From the NCBI GenBank assembly GCA_026014725.1, contig JAOZHV010000008.1, forward strand, positions 62,001 through 126,000: a stretch of 64,000 bases of DNA. Direction: 5' to 3'. The DNA comes from Candidatus Bathyarchaeota archaeon. GTDB lineage: Archaea > Thermoproteota > Bathyarchaeia > Bathyarchaeales > Bathycorpusculaceae. The notes beneath the pieces were generated by a model. The model did no database searches. It worked only from the letters and a program-made list of their open reading frames with translations, and was not told the DNA's origin. This document shows, in pieces, positions 47,388-56,994 of this stretch. The translations under genes were made by a program, and so were the position numbers. Position 1 is the stretch's first letter. Each line of letters begins with the position of its first letter.

Positions 47388-47463
47388 CGAATTTATTAGC
47401 AAATATGCTGGAGGAGTTGCAGAAGCAACAGTTTGCTTCTCAAAAACTACAGGAGATAGAAAA

Positions 47464-50007
47464 ATGAAAATACAAACAAAGAACAACACGGCTATTGGAA
47501 TCGCTTTAATTCTGATAATTGCTATGCTTTCATCATCTCTGATGATTATTCCAACAGTACAAGCATTAGAGTTAGAAATGAAACTACTGCTCAACATTAA
47601 CCCCAACCCCGTCGGAGTTGGTCAAACAGTATACGTTAACGCCTTCTTCACCCATACAATGCCAACATCTACTGGTTTCTATGGTGACCGACATGAAAAC
47701 ATCACAATAGTAGTCGAGCGACCTAACGGAGTAAAGGACACCTATGGCCCATTCATGGCAGATTCCACTGGAGGAACATGGTGTTCATTTGTCCCAACTG
47801 AAGCTGGAAACTACACTGCACAAGCTTTCTACCCTGGACAAATCTTAACAGGCACTAACCCCCTTGCACCAACGCTTGCTCCCGGTTTTGATCCTTCGAT
47901 GGGTGGCGCAGGTGGAAACCTTGAATTGATAGGTTCCCACGTGAAAGCTGCAACCAGCGAAAAAATAACGTTTGTTGTACAGGACGAACCGGTACTGCCA
48001 AAATACGTGACTCCACCGCTTCCAACCGAATACTGGTCTCGCCCCATATACTCAACCAACTACAACTGGGCTCAGCTTGGCGGGAACTGGTTCGGAGAAA
48101 CCAACGTTCAACTGTATTCGCAAGCACCAAACACTGGACATATTCTCTGGACAAAACCAACACATTTCGGAGGACAAGTAGGGGAACCAATTAAAGGTGA
48201 CCAAGAAAGCCAATACATGTCAACATCTTTGCTTGTAACTTACTTCACCCCCTTAGTGCTCAACGGAATACTCTTTAACAACAAGTATGCGAGCTCAAAC
48301 TCAAAAGTAATCGGATGGGAAGCTATTGACTTACGCACAGGAGAAACCCTCTGGTCCAGAACCGCAGGAGAAACAGGTGCAGAAACAATGACTAGAGTTC
48401 AAGCACTAAACTGGCACACAATACAGGAATACGGATGTACCGCATACATATGGAGTTCTTCAGGAAGCAGTCTAAGGTTATATGACGCAATGACCGGCGT
48501 ATACCTAGCTAACATCACAGGAGCCCAAAACCAACTCAACTTAGTAGATTACGACTGCACCGAGCAAGGAACCTTCCTAGGCTGGTATACTACTTCCAAC
48601 GCTACTGGCACCTATCTCAATCTCTGGAACTCAACACGGTGCATTGCTTACCCATATGGTCAGGGACCGTACTATATGCCACAGAACGTTTCTTATCAAA
48701 GCACTATTCGCCCATCAGGCAACATCGGCTTTGATAAAGGAATAATGTGGACAGTTCGTCTCGACACAGCCGCAGGTATACCGACAAGTATTGCTCTAAA
48801 AACTCTTGACGTAATCCTGTTACGTAGCGCTCCTACCGTTGCTCTAAGAATGTCTGCCGGTTATCAGGTTACAGCAGGTTATGACGCAAAAACAGGAGAG
48901 AAACTTTGGGGACCACTAAATCAATCAATACCTATGGATGAAGACATAAACGTTGTATGTAGCGGTGATGGTGTCTACGTGTTAACAAGCAAGACATCGC
49001 ATCAAGCATGGGGCTACTCTCTGAAGACAGGGCAGAAACTATGGGGACCAGTACAACTTAAAGGAAACGCTTTCAGTCACCTTTCAAATACTGGGGCATG
49101 CGCTTACGGCATGGCTTATATTTCTGACTTCGGCGGCTACGTGAATGCTATTGATCTCCAAACAGGAAAACTCAACTGGACATTCACCCGCGGGAGCTCA
49201 GGATACGACACTCCATTCGGCATCTATCCACTATGGTACTTCAGCGTCGGATCTATCGGTGACGGAAAGATATTCCTCTCAGAAGGGCACGTCTACGACC
49301 CACCGCTATTCCCAGCTGGTCAACAGCTTGCAATAAACGCAACTACTGGCGAATTGGTCTGGAGCATAATGGCATGCACAATTAAATCTACTGAAGCAAT
49401 CGCAGACGGCATGATAACAACGTGGAACAGCTATGACAACCAGATATACGTTTTCAGCAAGGGTCAAACTGCCACAACAGTGTCAATACAAGATGACGTA
49501 GTCGCATATGGCGATCGCGTACTCATAAAAGGCACTGTAATGGACGAATCTCCAGGCACAAAGAACGCTGATCGTGTAGCTCGTTTTCCACACGGTGTTC
49601 CAGCAATCGCTGACGAGTTCATGTCTCCATGGATGGAGTACGTGTACATGCAGCAGACGAAACCAACCAACGCGACTGGTGTCCCCGTTACCCTTAGTGC
49701 CATTGATTCTAACGGTAACTACAGAGAAATCGGAACGACGACAACTGACATCAACGGCAACTTTAACTACGTTTGGGATCCTGACATTGAAGGCTTATAC
49801 ACAGTAACTGCTACATTCGGCGGTTCAGAATCTTACTGGCCATCCAACGCTCAAACAGCTTTCGTAGTAACTGCACCTGAGCCCACTGCATCACCTTACC
49901 CAGAGATTGCCTTGCCACCAACTGAAATGTATTTCATCGGAAGCACAATCGCAATCATCATTGCAATTGCCATAGTCGGTTTACTGATACTGAGAAAAAA
50001 ACAGTAA
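47464..50007 (+). CDS. PQQ-propeller surface protein, paralogue 1
   Basis: 847-aa exported protein. Signal peptide about residues 1-35 (ALILIIAMLSSSLMII). An Ig-like N-terminal domain (about 40-180, NPNPVGVGQTVYVNAFF) is followed by a PQQ-like beta-propeller (about 195-670; repeats such as GEKLWGPL, GQKLWGPV and GKLNWTF). A further Ig-like domain follows (about 675-815) ending with GSESYWPSNAQTAF. A C-terminal helix (about 822-843) with RKK anchors it to the membrane. It is paralogous to 51415-53994. Function unknown: cell-surface structure or solute binding. A pseudoknot-forming sequence directly follows the stop. Confidence 0.82.
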   Translation: MKIQTKNNTAIGIALILIIAMLSSSLMIIPTVQALELEMKLLLNINPNPVGVGQTVYVNAFFTHTMPTSTGFYGDRHENITIVVERPNGVKDTYGPFMADSTGGTWCSFVPTEAGNYTAQAFYPGQILTGTNPLAPTLAPGFDPSMGGAGGNLELIGSHVKAATSEKITFVVQDEPVLPKYVTPPLPTEYWSRPIYSTNYNWAQLGGNWFGETNVQLYSQAPNTGHILWTKPTHFGGQVGEPIKGDQESQYMSTSLLVTYFTPLVLNGILFNNKYASSNSKVIGWEAIDLRTGETLWSRTAGETGAETMTRVQALNWHTIQEYGCTAYIWSSSGSSLRLYDAMTGVYLANITGAQNQLNLVDYDCTEQGTFLGWYTTSNATGTYLNLWNSTRCIAYPYGQGPYYMPQNVSYQSTIRPSGNIGFDKGIMWTVRLDTAAGIPTSIALKTLDVILLRSAPTVALRMSAGYQVTAGYDAKTGEKLWGPLNQSIPMDEDINVVCSGDGVYVLTSKTSHQAWGYSLKTGQKLWGPVQLKGNAFSHLSNTGACAYGMAYISDFGGYVNAIDLQTGKLNWTFTRGSSGYDTPFGIYPLWYFSVGSIGDGKIFLSEGHVYDPPLFPAGQQLAINATTGELVWSIMACTIKSTEAIADGMITTWNSYDNQIYVFSKGQTATTVSIQDDVVAYGDRVLIKGTVMDESPGTKNADRVARFPHGVPAIADEFMSPWMEYVYMQQTKPTNATGVPVTLSAIDSNGNYREIGTTTTDINGNFNYVWDPDIEGLYTVTATFGGSESYWPSNAQTAFVVTAPEPTASPYPEIALPPTEMYFIGSTIAIIIAIAIVGLLILRKKQ

Positions 50008-50020
50008 AATAAACATCAAA

Positions 50021-50172
50021 AAACCACCTTTCCCCTTTTTTAGTCCTAAAATGCAAAGGAGAAATGTTGGGGCTGAATAGGCTCTGGTTAATGTTTCCAC
50101 GGCTTGATTGCCCAATATGTCGTGGCTGTAACATTTTATTCTCCTTAAATTTGGTCCAGAGCCTCAGCAAAC
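50021..50172 (+). ncRNA. Candidate structured RNA A downstream of surface gene 1
   Basis: Starts 14 bases after the surface gene stop. Stems: A, AAGGAGAA (50056-50063) with TTCTCCTT (50139-50146), extended by ATGTT (50064-50068) with AACAT (50130-50134); B, GGCTCTGG (50080-50087) with CCAGAGCC (50156-50163); C, CCACG (50097-50101) with CGTGG (50121-50125). The order A, B, C, C', A', B' makes stems A and B a pseudoknot. The same arrangement with changed bases recurs after the second surface gene. A T-run (TTTTTT) precedes it. Could be part of the 3' UTR or a separate RNA. Confidence 0.6.
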
Positions 50173-50256
50173 TACAAATGCGCTACTACTTATTTTCCCT
50201 TCCAATTATATTAACATTTAACTAACCATAAAACCAAAGACAGAACCTGCAAATAC

Positions 50257-50291
50257 AAACCCTTGCGAGCACGGAGCCCGCTGACTGTCTT
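50257..50291 (-). pseudogene. tRNA-Ser-like fragment
   Basis: On the + strand TTGCGAGCACGGAGCCCGCT followed by GACTGTCT aligns with the variable-arm and anticodon-stem part of the intact tRNA-Ser at 56.9 kb (CTGCGAGCACGAAGCCCACT, then GGCTATCT), differing at five of 28 positions, all transitions. The T-arm is no longer recognisable. An inverted repeat (AAAACCAA/AGACAG with CTGTCTT/TTGGTTTT) flanks it. Probably a decayed tRNA piece; it lies between the two surface genes, just past the end of a regulator gene. Confidence 0.55.
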
Positions 50292-50309
50292 GTCCTTGGT
50301 TTTAGGAAG

Positions 50310-50606
50310 CTATGTTGACAGTCTAAGGCGGGGGAATTTGAGTTGCCCTACATGCTTAATTATCCACTTCACAAGCTCATCGTATGCTTCCGACCCTGCC
50401 TCAGTTAAAACTACTGAACCGTTTTCGTCAAGTATAACAAAGCCTTTTTTTGACATCCAATCCAAATATTTAACCAACTTATCATATGATAGTTCAGTAG
50501 AAAGAGCCAGCGCAGTTTTGTTTACTTTATTCTTTTTCTTCAATGACTGGATAATTCGAGCAACGACATAGAGGTCAGGTTTAGAGCTCAGCGCTCCTGA
50601 GTTCAT
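50310..50606 (-). CDS. Small winged-helix protein
   Basis: 98 aa, a single winged helix of the kind common in archaea: IIQSLKKKNKVNKTALALST (about residues 18-37), recognition helix YDKLVKYLDWMSKKG, wing FVILDENGSVVLTEAG. Its start overlaps the 3' end of the membrane protein gene upstream by 26 bases, so translation is coupled. It may regulate the operon or the nearby surface-protein genes. No ligand domain. Confidence 0.7.
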   Translation of the reverse strand: MNSGALSSKPDLYVVARIIQSLKKKNKVNKTALALSTELSYDKLVKYLDWMSKKGFVILDENGSVVLTEAGSEAYDELVKWIIKHVGQLKFPRLRLST

Positions 50607-51261
50607 GGCTCAACCTCCGAAGCTCCCACTGGAGTTTCTCTATTGCTCGAATTTCATTAAACCGTTTTGAAAGGTCATACTTCAAAAAGATGATAAGAGC
50701 TAGAAAAGAAAAGTGAAATGATGCGTAGCCAAGTGCACCTATTCGATGAAGAACTATGGAGGTTATGAGATTTAACACAAAACCTATTATAAAGAAGAAT
50801 ATGAACCCATAAGCAGCTCCCTTAACAAGACTGTACATGGCATAACCCAATCTACCCGAAGAAACTACATCGAAAGACGTATTCCAATCGATCTCTGATA
50901 AAAGTTTTAGTGCTGAAGGAAATCCCTTAGAAAGCTCCTCTTTCCACTCGCCAGTCTTTACCTCATTTATCTTTCTCTTAATAAAAAGAATACCTACTAC
51001 AACTCCTACTGATGGAATAAGTACTATAGGAAAATTCAGGAAGAACCGCTCAAATTCATTAAACGCGCTTAGTAGTCCAAAGAACGAAATTAAGAGGTTG
51101 ACCACCATGCAAATCACGATAGAGCCGATAACGATTATAGTAAATCTTTTGAGGTGCCTGTCGAGTACATTGTATTTCTTGATTTCGTCGAGTGTTTCCA
51201 TTAGTTCGGCTACTTTCTTAACAACGTTTTCTTCTGTCATTGAACTGCTTTTTTCAGACAT
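50581..51261 (-). CDS. Four-helix membrane protein
   Basis: 226 aa from ATG 51261. Four hydrophobic segments at about residues 40-60, 75-95, 148-170 and 175-195, with charged helical ends (VKKVAELMETLDEIKK and FNEIRAIEKLQWELRR). The frame opens at ATG 51336, but I prefer ATG 51261 because a TATA-like TTTTATATTC lies at about 51319-51329 on this strand and would put transcription start near 51297. Family not recognised. Coupled to a winged-helix gene by overlap; possibly a membrane sensor with its regulator. Confidence 0.6.
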   Translation of the reverse strand: MSEKSSSMTEENVVKKVAELMETLDEIKKYNVLDRHLKRFTIIVIGSIVICMVVNLLISFFGLLSAFNEFERFFLNFPIVLIPSVGVVVGILFIKRKINEVKTGEWKEELSKGFPSALKLLSEIDWNTSFDVVSSGRLGYAMYSLVKGAAYGFIFFFIIGFVLNLITSIVLHRIGALGYASFHFSFLALIIFLKYDLSKRFNEIRAIEKLQWELRRLSHELRSAEL

Positions 51262-51336
51262 AATATCCAGATGTACCCCCTCAGCGAACTCTGCCCCGCA
51301 GGCTGATAAAGTAACTTTACGATGAATATAAAACAT

Positions 51337-51353
51337 ACTCTCTCGCAGAGAGT
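51337..51353. promoter_or_regulatory. Perfect palindrome upstream of surface gene 2
   Basis: ACTCTCTCGCAGAGAGT is a perfect 7-base inverted repeat with a CGC centre. It lies 62 bases before the start of the second surface gene and next to the likely TATA box of the divergent membrane protein gene, so one bound factor could affect both. Confidence 0.5.
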
Positions 51354-51414
51354 CAGTCTAATTAATTCATTTTCTCAACAAGGCATTATAAAAAATAAAG
51401 AAAAGTGAACTAAA

Positions 51415-53994
51415 ATGAAAATCAAAACTAATCTGAAAACAAAAGCCTCTATAGCCTTGATTCTTATGTTGACTATTGCTATCCCACTTTTTTCTATACC
51501 GACAACTAATGGTCAAACATCTGCTGGGAAGACAACTACTCATCCCATGCTCACTGTTAACCCCAACCCTGTAGGCGTCGGTCAACCCGTGAATATTGTG
51601 ATGTGGGTTGGCATGCTCTTGCCATCAGCATCCGTGACCAACGACATACGCTTCCACGATTACACTCTTACTATCACTAAGCCTGACGGAAAAACAGAAA
51701 CAATGAAATGGGCTATCGTTCAAGACACGACATCAACACAATACACAAAGTACACGCCTGATCAAGTTGGCACATACACTTTAAACTTCAGCTATCCCGA
51801 TCAAGTTTACACTTGGAATGCCACAGCCGCAATGAGAACATGGACAAACCATGTTTTTCTCGGAGCAAGCAAAACAGTCACCCTTACAGTACAGGAAGAA
51901 CAACTACCTGAGCCAATAAGCAGTTACCCACTTCCAACAGAATACTGGACGCGCCCAATAGAAGGACAGAACACTGACTGGTGGGCTATTTCGTCACACT
52001 GGCTTGGCTGTGACCACCCCTTACATTATAATCTAGTAGCGGCAGACGCGATGTACCAGCCAGACGGCACAGCTCCTAACAGCCCCCATGTAATGTGGAC
52101 TAAACGTATTGATGAAGGAGGCGTTGTCGGTGGCAGCTTTGCTGGCATCGAAGGAGAAATGTACTACAGCGGTTCAGCATACCAACCAAGATTTTACAAT
52201 CCAATAATAATGAATGGTTTGCTCTTCTACGCGGTCCCATCCCAGAATTCTATGTCAGGAGGCGGATACATGTGCGTTGATTTACACACTGGCGAAAAAA
52301 TATGGTTCAACGAAAAAATAGGCGTTGACACGAGTTGGCCTATTCCATCCTTTGGATACCTTTATTCTGCACACACCGAGAACCAACATGGCGCAATCCC
52401 CAATGGCGTCTTGTTCTCAAGCAACTTTGCCGTAGCATATGAACCATGGACAGGACAACGTCTATTCAACGTAACTAATGTACCTTCAGGCATGGCTGCA
52501 GTTGGACCACAAGGCGAGATACTACGCTACCAGATAAATATTGCAAGCAGATGGCTGGCTCAATGGAACTCTTCTCGGCTATGGTCCACCGCTTCAAGTG
52601 GCTGGGTACCTGACTGGAACACAACAAACGGCTGGGTAAACGCGAGCACAAGTGCACGTTATGACTGGAACGTATCCATACCAACAACTATACCCACAAA
52701 CACCTCTCCATTTAAAGCAATTTGTGACGATATACTGCTTGGCTCTACCTCGTTTTCAGGATCTTCAGGCATCGGGACTCCAAACCCATATACCATGTGG
52801 GCTATCAGTCTGAAGCCAGAATCACGAGGACAACTGATGTGGCTAAAACAGTACGATGCGCCGCCAGACAATGTTACCCGAATGTTACGCGCAGTAGATC
52901 CAGTAAATCGCGTTATCATTATGTTAGACAAAGAAACTTTCCAATATTTAGGCTACAGCATGGACACTGGAAATTATATGTGGACAACAGCAGTACCTGC
53001 TGGCATTTCTGACTTTGCATACTTTGACTCAACTCATGGCTCAGTATTCTGCACAGTTGACCACGGTGTTCTCTATAATAGCGGTTTTGGAGGAGTACTA
53101 TACGCCTACGACACAAAAGACGGTAAACTACTATGGACTTACGGTAATGGCGGCGAAGGCAACAGTACTTTCAGTGGTTTTCAAACGCCTTGGGGAAACT
53201 ATCCACAATTCATATCAAACACTGCTGACGGCAAAGTCTTTTTGTTTAGTGGCGAACACTCTCCTAACACTCCTCTATACAAAGGCTTACGGGTAAGGGC
53301 GGTTAACGCTACCACAGGCGAAGAAATATGGACTCTACTCGGCTCAATGGGCTATCCTCCGCGTCAATGGTATCCTGTTGCAGACGGCTTTATTGCATAC
53401 CATAACATGTACGATGGGCAGATATACTGCATTGGCAAAGGTCCCAGTGCCGTCACCGTGGACGTACCCATGACCGCAGCCGCACTTGGTCAAAGCGTTG
53501 TAATCAGAGGCACCGTTACAGACATCGCCGCAGGCACCAAACAAACGCAACAAGCCGCACGATTCCCCAACGGTGTCCCAGCAGTTTCCGATGAAAGCCA
53601 AGGCGAATGGATGGAATACGTTTACATGCAAAAGCCACGCCCGACTAACGTCACAGGAGTTCCCATTGTCATAAGCGTCCTCGATGCTAACAATAATTAT
53701 AGGGAAATCGGCACAGTCACAAGCGACGCAGACGGCTTCTATAGTTTGAGCTGGAAACCAGACATCGAAGGCAAATACACAGTCTACGCTTCATTCGGCG
53801 GTAGCGAATCCTACTGGCCATCACATGCAGTAACAGCATTCACAGTTGACCCAGCACCACCAACACCAGCACCAACGCAACCAGTCCAGACCTCAATGGC
53901 TGACATATACCTGGTCCCAGGCATAGCGGCAATTATTGTTGCAATCGCAATAGTGGGCGCAATGATAATGCTCATGCTCAGAAAGCGACCATAA
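51415..53994 (+). CDS. PQQ-propeller surface protein, paralogue 2
   Basis: 859-aa paralogue of the protein at 47464-50007. Shared plan: signal peptide (ALILMLTIAIPLF), Ig-like domain beginning VNPNPVGVGQPVNI, the segment PLPTEYWTRPIEGQN (near residue 178), a propeller with GEKIWFNEK, GKLLWTYGNG and GEEIWTLLG, then a second Ig-like domain with GSESYWPSHAVTAF, a Pro/Thr linker (APPTPAPTQPVQ) and a C-terminal helix ending RKRP. Both proteins share the phrase GVPAIxDE/GVPAVSDE before WMEYVYMQ. Probably surface exposed with the C-terminus in the membrane. Confidence 0.82.
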   Translation: MKIKTNLKTKASIALILMLTIAIPLFSIPTTNGQTSAGKTTTHPMLTVNPNPVGVGQPVNIVMWVGMLLPSASVTNDIRFHDYTLTITKPDGKTETMKWAIVQDTTSTQYTKYTPDQVGTYTLNFSYPDQVYTWNATAAMRTWTNHVFLGASKTVTLTVQEEQLPEPISSYPLPTEYWTRPIEGQNTDWWAISSHWLGCDHPLHYNLVAADAMYQPDGTAPNSPHVMWTKRIDEGGVVGGSFAGIEGEMYYSGSAYQPRFYNPIIMNGLLFYAVPSQNSMSGGGYMCVDLHTGEKIWFNEKIGVDTSWPIPSFGYLYSAHTENQHGAIPNGVLFSSNFAVAYEPWTGQRLFNVTNVPSGMAAVGPQGEILRYQINIASRWLAQWNSSRLWSTASSGWVPDWNTTNGWVNASTSARYDWNVSIPTTIPTNTSPFKAICDDILLGSTSFSGSSGIGTPNPYTMWAISLKPESRGQLMWLKQYDAPPDNVTRMLRAVDPVNRVIIMLDKETFQYLGYSMDTGNYMWTTAVPAGISDFAYFDSTHGSVFCTVDHGVLYNSGFGGVLYAYDTKDGKLLWTYGNGGEGNSTFSGFQTPWGNYPQFISNTADGKVFLFSGEHSPNTPLYKGLRVRAVNATTGEEIWTLLGSMGYPPRQWYPVADGFIAYHNMYDGQIYCIGKGPSAVTVDVPMTAAALGQSVVIRGTVTDIAAGTKQTQQAARFPNGVPAVSDESQGEWMEYVYMQKPRPTNVTGVPIVISVLDANNNYREIGTVTSDADGFYSLSWKPDIEGKYTVYASFGGSESYWPSHAVTAFTVDPAPPTPAPTQPVQTSMADIYLVPGIAAIIVAIAIVGAMIMLMLRKRP

Positions 53995-54011
53995 AAGAAC
54001 CGATAAAACAA

Positions 54012-54168
54012 CAATCTTTCCCCTTTTTTAGTTACAAATGCATCGGAGAAAAGCGGGGGCTAAATGGGCCTTGGTTTCAAGTTCCGCGATCTGCCCAGTA
54101 ATTGCGGCTTAACTTTAAACTTGCATTCTTTTCTCCCTAACAGTGTCCCAGAGCCCTAGCAAACCCTG
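54012..54168 (+). ncRNA. Candidate structured RNA B downstream of surface gene 2
   Basis: Starts about 18 bases after the stop and is homologous to the element at 50021-50172. Stems: A, GGAGAAAAG (54045-54053) with CTTTTCTCC (54128-54136); B, GGGCCTTGG (54066-54074) with CCAGAGCCC (54148-54156), with one C-A mismatch; C, CCGC (54084-54087) with GCGG (54104-54107). Conserved blocks between copies include CTTTCCCCTTTTTTAGT, GGGGCT, TGCCCA and AGCAAAC. Stems A and C keep pairing while their bases differ between copies, which supports a functional RNA. Confidence 0.6.
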
Positions 54169-55092: not shown

Positions 55093-55941
55093 CTATTGAA
55101 ATTTGGCTAGCGCTTTTTTGATTAATTCTAATGCTTCATTTAATTTTGTTTCGTTTTCCAAATGATAGTATCCCCATCCACCCCATTTCTCACTCCAATA
55201 ATAATCTGCGTTATTAGCCTCTTCTGAAGTAAGCGGAAAATCAAGTCTTAGCCAATTTTTCTTTATGTGTAAACCACAAAGGTTCTTTTTTCCCACGAAG
55301 GCAATGTAATCTTGCGGAGAAGGATTTATTTTTATGGTGTTATCAATTGAAAGCACTTCTTTTTTGAATTTTTCATACAAAGGTCGCATATGAGAATTTG
55401 ATTTGAAGTGATCGTCTTCTGACTTGGGTGGGTAGATGAAAGAATTGGTACCTACTGAAGTATCTAGTACTACAATGGGCGCAACAAGTATCTCATTGTC
55501 TTTTGGAGACTTTGTTAGTGTATAAGAAACAAGTTTTATAGATGGGCTCAGTGCCCAGCAAGCATTTTTTACTTCTTCGCTCACGCTACTCACGAGTGCC
55601 ATAAGCCTAATGTCTTGGGTAACTTCTCTGAAACCTTTCTTTTCGAAAACTGAGAAAAGAAGCCTTATGTGATTTTCGTCTTTAGAAAACCAGCTGTAGT
55701 ACTCCATAAGTTGGATAAGTGCATCTTTATCAAAATTCCCTATTCTCTTGCATTCAATTATTACAGGGTTATTTTCCTCGTCAATCGCCAATATGTCAAT
55801 TATACCAGTGCCTATATGGAGATAGGAATCAACATACCTGAGTCCTTCTTCTATAGAATCAAGGTTCTTCTCGAATAAGTCTTGCAGCTCTTTTTCAGGA
55901 ATATCCAAGTTAACGTTTTTTAGTATACTTAGTTTGACCAT
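55093..55941 (-). CDS. NucS/RecB-like nuclease with DUF5655-like C-terminus
   Basis: 282 aa. The N-terminal half is a RecB/NucS-type nuclease domain: IGTGIIDILAIDEENN (about residues 42-57) supplies the Asp, PVIIECKRI (about 58-66) the ExK motif, and ALIQLMEYYSWF the following helix. The C-terminal part (about 205-282; DYIAFVGKKNLCGLHI, then LIKKALAKF) resembles the DUF5655 domain often appended to such proteins. Probably acts on DNA; similar genes occur in defence and mobile contexts, though repair is possible. It stands alone in an AT-rich, decayed region. Confidence 0.75.
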   Translation of the reverse strand: MVKLSILKNVNLDIPEKELQDLFEKNLDSIEEGLRYVDSYLHIGTGIIDILAIDEENNPVIIECKRIGNFDKDALIQLMEYYSWFSKDENHIRLLFSVFEKKGFREVTQDIRLMALVSSVSEEVKNACWALSPSIKLVSYTLTKSPKDNEILVAPIVVLDTSVGTNSFIYPPKSEDDHFKSNSHMRPLYEKFKKEVLSIDNTIKINPSPQDYIAFVGKKNLCGLHIKKNWLRLDFPLTSEEANNADYYWSEKWGGWGYYHLENETKLNEALELIKKALAKFQ

Positions 55942-56867: not shown

Positions 56868-56994
56868 TGGCGCCGGGGAAGGGACTCGAACCCCTGCGAG
56901 CACGAAGCCCACTGGCTATCTCGCCGTTTTTCTGGCTTAGCCCTCTTTTCTTTAGATCTCGAGGCCAGCGCGATAACCACTCCGCCACCCCGGC
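56868..56994 (-). tRNA. tRNA-Ser (CGA) with intron and encoded CCA
   Basis: 5' acceptor GCCGGGG (56994 to 56988) pairs with CCCCGGC (56878 to 56872), followed by G and an encoded CCA (56870-56868). The anticodon stem is CTGGC with GCCAG, the anticodon CGA lies at 56961-56959, and a 40-nt intron (about 56918-56957) interrupts the loop after position 37, the usual archaeal place. A long variable arm (TGGGCTTCGTGCTCGC) marks a serine-type tRNA. T-arm is AGGGG-TTCGAGT-CCCTT. Confidence 0.93.

Follow-up and report, generated by a model that had tools for sequence, protein, structure and literature searches.

We analyzed a 64,000-nt stretch of DNA from Candidatus Bathyarchaeota archaeon (contig JAOZHV010000008.1, positions 62,001 to 126,000; hereafter the window, with positions counted from its first letter). 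Two surface-protein genes lie on the forward strand of this window. Gene 1 (47464–50007) encodes a PQQ_2 propeller with a signal peptide-like N-terminus and a C-terminal TM helix, and gene 2 (51415–53994) encodes a PQQ_2 propeller with a C-terminal TM helix. Their stop codons are at 50005–50007 and 53992–53994, respectively. Each gene is followed on the same strand by the same terminator-like pyrimidine/U-tract, TTTCCCCTTTTTTAGT (50029–50044 and 54017–54032), and then by a structured core (50066–50174, copy 1; 54053–54166, copy 2).

A sequence-only reading of this region had described two related sequences of about 140 nt behind these genes, both able to form the same pseudoknot from stems A, B and C, and had proposed a new archaeal RNA. 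We found both sequences at the described places, and this observation is confirmed. Next, we tested whether they are related beyond chance. A 201-nt DNA query around copy 1 found copy 2 with an E-value of 7e-11, and also further copies on other contigs. A covariance model built from eight copies recovered those eight and a ninth at E ≤ 4e-9, plus three weaker ones at 0.016–0.04, which gives 9 strong and 3 weaker copies in this genome. Hits were also obtained in 44 of 257 genomes of its class (Bathyarchaeota), with up to 15 or more copies per genome. In a scan of the window against Rfam release 15, no RNA family other than a tRNA reached the gathering score, and a permissive search of copy 1 gave only matches far below that score. 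Hence, no described Rfam family matches.

We then examined the structure using an alignment of 129 copies. In copy 1, the 5′ strand of stem B (50069–50087; GGGGCUG-AAU-AGGCUCUGG) pairs with the 3′ strand at 50156–50174 (CCAGAGCCU-CAGC-AAA-CUA), and stem C is formed by 50097–50103 (CCACGGC) and 50119–50125 (GUCGUGG). In copy 2, stem B consists of 54057–54074 (GGGCUA-AAU-GGGCCUUGG) and 54147–54166 (CCCAGAGCCC-UAGC-AAA-CCC), and stem C of 54084–54090 (CCGCGAU) and 54101–54107 (AUUGCGG). Stem B is longer than previously drawn (GGG + GCUG + 3-nt bulge + 9 bp against 9 bp + CAGC + AAA + CCC), and stem B as originally written for copy 2 contains one C–A mismatch. Both stems covary strongly: 93.7% of the cells are paired, 19 of 22 pairs have two-sided changes, and the covariation score is 0.346 compared with 0.166 in shuffles and at most 0.084 in slid controls, although an alignment fitted by a covariance model favours its own structure. 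Further copies in relatives and covariation beyond the first two copies had been named beforehand among the points on which the proposal would stand or fall, and both were found. G–U pairs (152) exceeded A–C combinations (52), which points to an RNA of the gene strand. When folded alone, copy 1 is more stable than its shuffles (z = −2.65) but copy 2 is not clearly so (z = −1.19), so the evidence for the structure is comparative. Two loci (L132 and L121) have variant cores with doubtful context.

The pseudoknot was not upheld as the defining architecture. Its stem A can form in both window copies, where the 5′ strand is AAGGAGAA at 50056–50063 and GGAGAAAAG at 54045–54053. However, three sister copies in the same genome (loci L003, L004 and L007) lack this GGAGA strand. 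Complementarity of the 5′ purine strand to the 3′ tract was 15.4 for own pairs, only slightly above pairs swapped from other copies (14.8 ± 0.2), and 12.8 for shuffled sequences. GGAGA is present in only 33 of 120 non-solo copies, but this is far above the 1.8 expected, so it is a lineage-specific feature, which would be a Shine-Dalgarno mimic. An HDV-like nested pseudoknot was also considered, and was dropped because stem A is not conserved in all copies.

Next, we looked at the genomic context. Of the 129 copies, 109 have an upstream ORF of at least 150 aa on the same strand, and 106 of these 109 belong to one homologous family of PQQ-propeller surface proteins. The core starts at a median of 59 nt after the stop, mostly just past a terminator-like U-tract, which is a plausible cleavage or termination site (PMC8716108). 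No enrichment of T-tracts was observed behind the core, so the element does not look like a terminator itself. Only a few copies lie ahead of a surface gene (loci L096, L126 and L127), and therefore the element does not have the location of a riboswitch or another 5′-UTR regulatory element. For stand-alone copies, TATA-like signals are only slightly above shuffled sequence (7.4 versus 6.8).

The conserved 3′ strand of stem A is better read as an antisense tract, complementary to the Shine-Dalgarno, spacer and often the start codon of genes of the same surface-protein family. Its mean unpaired probability is 0.60, compared with 0.12 for the 5′ strand of stem B. In copy 1, the tract lies at 50132–50148, of which 50134–50146 is a 13-nt perfect complement of the start region of the surface gene on another contig of this genome, C22 (AAGGAGAATAAAA). 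In copy 2, the tract (54121–54140; TTGCATTCTTTTCTCCCTAA) has 12-nt perfect complements of the start regions of three paralogs lacking the element (on contigs C44, C17 and C52), and a 14-nt perfect complement to a fourth (C44) that includes its AUG. The start region of gene 1 itself (47449–47463; ACAGGAGATAGAAAA before the ATG) is a predicted target of the RNA copy on contig C1 (−32.1 kcal/mol) and of the stand-alone copy on C52. Perfect matches to siblings reach 13–14 nt in this genome, where the target search used retrieved regions only and its list covered 15 surface-gene start sites and not every paralog, 20 nt in another genome (G011) and 22 nt in a third (G048), whereas sampled non-surface genes reach at most 10 nt. 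The long matches in G048 include A-rich start sequence of low complexity. Several copies match the same few start sites, so the network is not one-to-one.

To test this complementarity quantitatively, we slid the tract along the surface genes, with start codons predicted without using the Shine-Dalgarno. The duplex energy has a sharp minimum at the start region (−13.3 against a background of −6.9, sd 0.57), and the minimum is there in 48 of 85 genes. Surface genes of genomes without the RNA have similar purine-rich start sites (−11.4, n = 20, not significantly different), so these sites do not exist because of the RNA. However, the tract and the surface-gene sites co-vary between genomes: the effect was −1.06 kcal/mol (p = 0.0003) over 12 genomes, and −0.57 (p = 0.0017) without the distant one. 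On a 6-genome subset, surface genes gave −1.63 (p = 0.003), while 340 non-surface genes gave −0.06 (p = 0.22). As non-surface genes of the same genomes also pair less, a generic anti-Shine-Dalgarno function was rejected. Several variants of the pairing tests were run without correction for multiple testing, and genomes of one genus are not independent.

We also observed that each copy's own gene is disfavoured as a partner. Own-gene pairing was weaker by 0.78 kcal/mol (p = 0.0006, 11 of 11 genomes), and the same direction was seen by match length (p = 0.007, 10 of 11) and with an extended region (p = 0.004, 10 of 11). Some copies do match their own gene fairly well (for example 10 nt for the C22 and C35 contig copies), so this self-avoidance is a tendency and not a rule.

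The above results led us to propose, with reasonable but not full confidence, that the element is a ∼110-nt RNA, probably 3′-UTR-derived, encoded on the strand of the preceding surface-protein gene, in which the long imperfect stem B and hairpin C frame a pyrimidine tract in the large internal loop. It is likely that this RNA is made by read-through or cleavage at the U-tract behind the gene, or from its own promoter in a few stand-alone copies, and that it acts in trans to block translation initiation of sibling surface-protein mRNAs while largely sparing its own. As the U-tract between the stop and the element resembles an archaeal terminator, one of these routes would be needed. An expressed surface gene would thereby repress its siblings, and the 5′ GGAGA strand of some lineages would be a mimic that can cover the tract. 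Our computations establish the family, its conserved structure and genomic association, the complementarity to sibling start sites, the co-variation of tract and sites between genomes and the weaker match to the own gene. In contrast, transcription and release of the RNA, its pairing in the cell, any change in target expression, repression rather than activation, and any switching are inferred from sequence, without transcript data. The interpretation in the sequence-only reading is thus partly supported: a new structured archaeal RNA, linked to surface-protein genes, with compensatory changes, was correct, and a trans-acting RNA was among the roles it listed next to mRNA stabilization and termination, but the pseudoknot was not upheld.

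A further possibility, which we hold only tentatively, is an RNA-based mutual-exclusion circuit for the archaeal cell coat. Each expressed surface-protein mRNA would carry behind it an antisense RNA silencing the translation starts of its siblings but not its own, so that a cell displays one or a few of its many paralogous surface proteins and can switch coats. The closest precedent is s-SodF of Streptomyces coelicolor, a bacterial sRNA released from the 3′ UTR of one mRNA that supports mutually exclusive expression (PMC9438474). It comprises one RNA and one target in a bacterium, whereas here a whole paralog family in archaea shares one structured scaffold with varying antisense tracts, for which release and regulation are inferred. 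In Methanosarcina mazei, sRNA162, sRNA41 and sRNA154 are archaeal trans-acting RNAs in which an unstructured or loop region masks the ribosome-binding site of target mRNAs (PMC3510493, PMC5867862). Our element likewise has a mostly single-stranded region complementary to the ribosome-binding sites of its predicted targets, the resemblance being one of predicted mode of action, with sequence compared through the Rfam scan only. The M. mazei RNAs are single intergenic or cis-antisense genes with metabolic or regulatory targets, and not multi-copy elements behind the genes of the target family. The present findings add a structured RNA family from a widespread, largely uncultured archaeal lineage, together with an explicit and testable function. 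If the model holds, it is a family-wide network of RNAs that ride behind the genes whose siblings they silence, wiring that in the papers we read is described only for a single gene pair in a bacterium. It would give a mechanism for choosing among many surface-protein paralogs in archaea, and the tract would be a readable targeting code, so that targets can be predicted from sequence alone.

Other explanations appear unlikely on present evidence. The RNA could be a target, decoy or sponge that sequesters another regulator (a protein or RNA binding these start sites or pyrimidine tracts), or it could activate sibling translation. Its multi-copy, highly structured nature and the strongly conserved sequence at the base of stem B (GCUG/CAGC-AAA-CCC) suggest a bound protein, and the GGAGA mimic of some copies could compete for the tract. 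However, the direct co-variation of tract and surface-gene start sites, absent for non-surface genes, needs no third partner. About equally unlikely is a cis-acting element, in which the 3′-UTR tract folds back on the start region of its own mRNA in a 5′–3′ closed loop and sets its translation. This is consistent with the position of the element, with the few copies in front of a surface gene, and with own-gene complementarity well above shuffled controls (−12.96 against −8.6). It is disfavoured because the own gene pairs worse than siblings do within genomes, paralogs without the element hold some of the best matches, and stand-alone copies exist.

Less likely still is a 3′-end stability or termination element whose pyrimidine tract binds a protein and matches purine-rich start sites only incidentally. 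The position after the stop and next to a U-tract, and the pyrimidine-rich tract, would fit, but paralogs without the element have the U-tract anyway, and incidental complementarity predicts neither genome-specific co-variation limited to the surface family nor weaker own-gene pairing. The least likely explanation is a mobile or recombining DNA element without RNA function, although copies are numerous, patchy between genomes and more alike within than between genomes, and assemblies often break at them. A DNA cassette or attC-like site, considered because of the palindromic ends and gene-flanking position, was rejected on the G–U excess and the dispersed single copies, and exact-pattern searches gave no match in viral contigs. 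The covariation and the excess of G–U over A–C show selection on single-stranded RNA of one strand, and the copies sit at a fixed distance behind one gene family.

We first characterized the sequences that lie behind the two PQQ-propeller surface-protein genes of the window. Copies of about 140 nt follow the stop codons of these two genes, with the structured cores located at 50066-50174 and 54053-54166. A DNA query around the first copy found relatives on other contigs of the same genome, and a covariance model of the core built from eight of these found 9 strong and 3 weaker copies in the genome, as well as copies in 19 of 61 genomes, the window's own included. After one round of rebuilding, the model found them in 44 of 257 genomes of the class, often with 10 or more copies per genome; as no more than 15 copies were scored per genome in this search, these counts are lower bounds, and the E-values of the covariance model are rough. 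Assemblies often end inside or close to the element (contig ends in the genomes G147, G123, G029, G166 and G009), a sign of near-identical copies within genomes and hence of undercounting. In a sample of 398 genomes of the phylum, all hits fell in the same two families. The records found by an exact-pattern scan are deposited as Candidatus Bathyarchaeota, plus one MCG-1 and one Crenarchaeota MAG. Searches of Rfam returned nothing like this element. The sequence-only reading of two related structured sequences behind these genes held.

Next, we examined the structure in an alignment of 129 copies. Stem B consists of GGG + GCUG + a 3-nt bulge + 9 bp, closed on the 3' side by CAGC + AAA + CCC, and it encloses hairpin C. 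We observed that 93.7% of cells are paired, that 19 of 22 pairs show changes on both sides, and that the covariation score is 0.346, against 0.166 in shuffles and at most 0.084 in slid controls. One copy, L007, inserts a whole compensated base pair in stem B. The G-U pairs outnumber the A-C mismatches 152 to 52, which points to RNA of the gene strand rather than a DNA hairpin, although the model's own scoring leans the same way. The sequence-only reading had also drawn a pseudoknot with a further stem, A, and its interpretation was only partly supported. Stem A is not general: its 3' pyrimidine strand is conserved, but the 5' partner is missing in several copies, and own pairs are only slightly better than swapped ones. 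A GGAGA strand near the core is nevertheless enriched in some lineages, including this genome (33 of 120 against 1.8 expected).

We then analyzed the genomic context of the copies. Of 109 copies with an upstream ORF of at least 150 aa, 106 follow members of one protein family (median pairwise identity 34% over long alignments), and the core starts 59 nt (median) after the stop. A run of five or more T lies between the stop and the core in 102 of 109. Paralogs without the RNA, and genes of genomes without it, have a similar tract in that place, and therefore it is probably the ordinary terminator. In archaea, such U-tracts are bound by aCPSF1, which cleaves the RNA just downstream (PMC8716108). 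In family f6, the pyrimidine tract after the stop could also form a small hairpin (CTCCC, a T-rich loop, GGGAG) before the RNA, upstream of the core at loci L077, L078, L079 and L080 of genome G048. We also observed that the elements are more alike within a genome than between genomes, even for orthologous genes, as expected of a family that shares a partner or evolves in concert. A natural gain/loss pair is provided by the orthologs at L194/L251 (contig C15 of genome G018) against L193 (contig C7 of genome G011), which are 87-89% identical to window gene 2: the RNA is present behind one and absent behind the other right after the U-tract.

A few copies stand alone or ahead of a surface gene and lack this tract. 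The copies at L096:3955-4063 (genome G123), L126:4010-4114 and L127:1622-1734 (genome G029) lie in front of a surface-protein gene without the U-tract, and L096 and L126 carry a second copy behind the same gene. The stand-alone copies L067 (G000:C52:109526-109626), L072, L030, L042, L115 and L116 have AT-rich upstream sequence and TATA-like boxes 47-85 nt before the core. L096 and L115 share an upstream block (GAAGANGCACTTATT) and similar neighbours, although no surface gene was seen behind L115.

To look for a possible function, we compared the conserved pyrimidine tract with the start regions of the surface-protein genes. The tract is the reverse complement of these start regions, for example TTCTTTTCTCCT against AGGAGAAAAGAA-ATG in family f1, and TTTTTTCACCTTC against GAAGGTGAAAAA-ATG in family f6. 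When the start codons, which are predictions, were chosen without reference to the Shine-Dalgarno, the duplex energy along the genes had its minimum at the start region (-13.3 against a background of -6.9). Across genomes, the tract and the surface-gene sites co-vary after row and column effects are removed (p=0.0003; p=0.0017 within f1; p=0.014 with one genome per genus, genomes of one genus not being independent). On a 6-genome subset, surface genes gave p=0.003 and non-surface genes p=0.22, although the starts of the latter were picked to maximise Shine-Dalgarno strength. The pairing tests were not corrected for the number of variants tried.

We next asked whether this complementarity is directed to the gene that precedes each copy or to its siblings. 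Within genomes the own gene is disfavoured, by +0.78 kcal/mol relative to row and column means, positive in 11 of 11 genomes (p=0.0006), and this was also seen by perfect-match length (p=0.007) and on the extended start region (p=0.004). It is a tendency, as some copies match their own gene over 10 nt. Most copies have longer perfect matches to siblings, including siblings without an element. The first window copy matches the surface gene on contig C22 of this genome over 13 nt (own 6), whereas the second matches three element-less paralogs over 12 nt each and a fourth over 14 nt including the start codon (own 7 nt, -6.1 kcal/mol). Gene 1 of the window is itself the best target, by predicted pairing, of the copy on contig C1 (-32.1 kcal/mol). 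In the genomes G011 and G048, the matches reach 20 and 22 nt across the Shine-Dalgarno, spacer and start codon, although part of the G048 match is low-complexity A-rich sequence. Matches to the sampled non-surface genes do not exceed 10 nt.

The simplest reading of these results is a family of mRNA-borne or mRNA-derived antisense RNAs by which surface-protein paralogs would repress each other's translation. Whereas the complementarity, the co-variation and the disfavoured own gene come from the computed comparisons, it remains an inference that the RNA is made or released, that it pairs in cells, that the effect is repression and that coat switching occurs. Surface genes of genomes lacking the RNA keep similar purine-rich start sites, and therefore the sites are not made by the RNA; it is the co-variation and the self-avoidance that constitute the specific evidence. 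The proposed logic resembles that of s-SodF in Streptomyces, where the 3' UTR of one superoxide dismutase mRNA silences the other (PMC9438474), and that of archaeal RNAs that mask ribosome-binding sites (PMC3510493; PMC5867862).

We also recorded other features in the window. On the opposite strand between the two surface genes, a small winged-helix protein (HTH_45) is encoded beside a 251-aa membrane-like protein without a Pfam match (50310-51336, minus strand). A protein joining a NucS C-terminal nuclease domain with DUF5655 is encoded at 55093-55941 (minus strand). At 56871-56994 (minus strand), we observed a tRNA match of 124 nt against a 71-position model, which is probably intron-containing.
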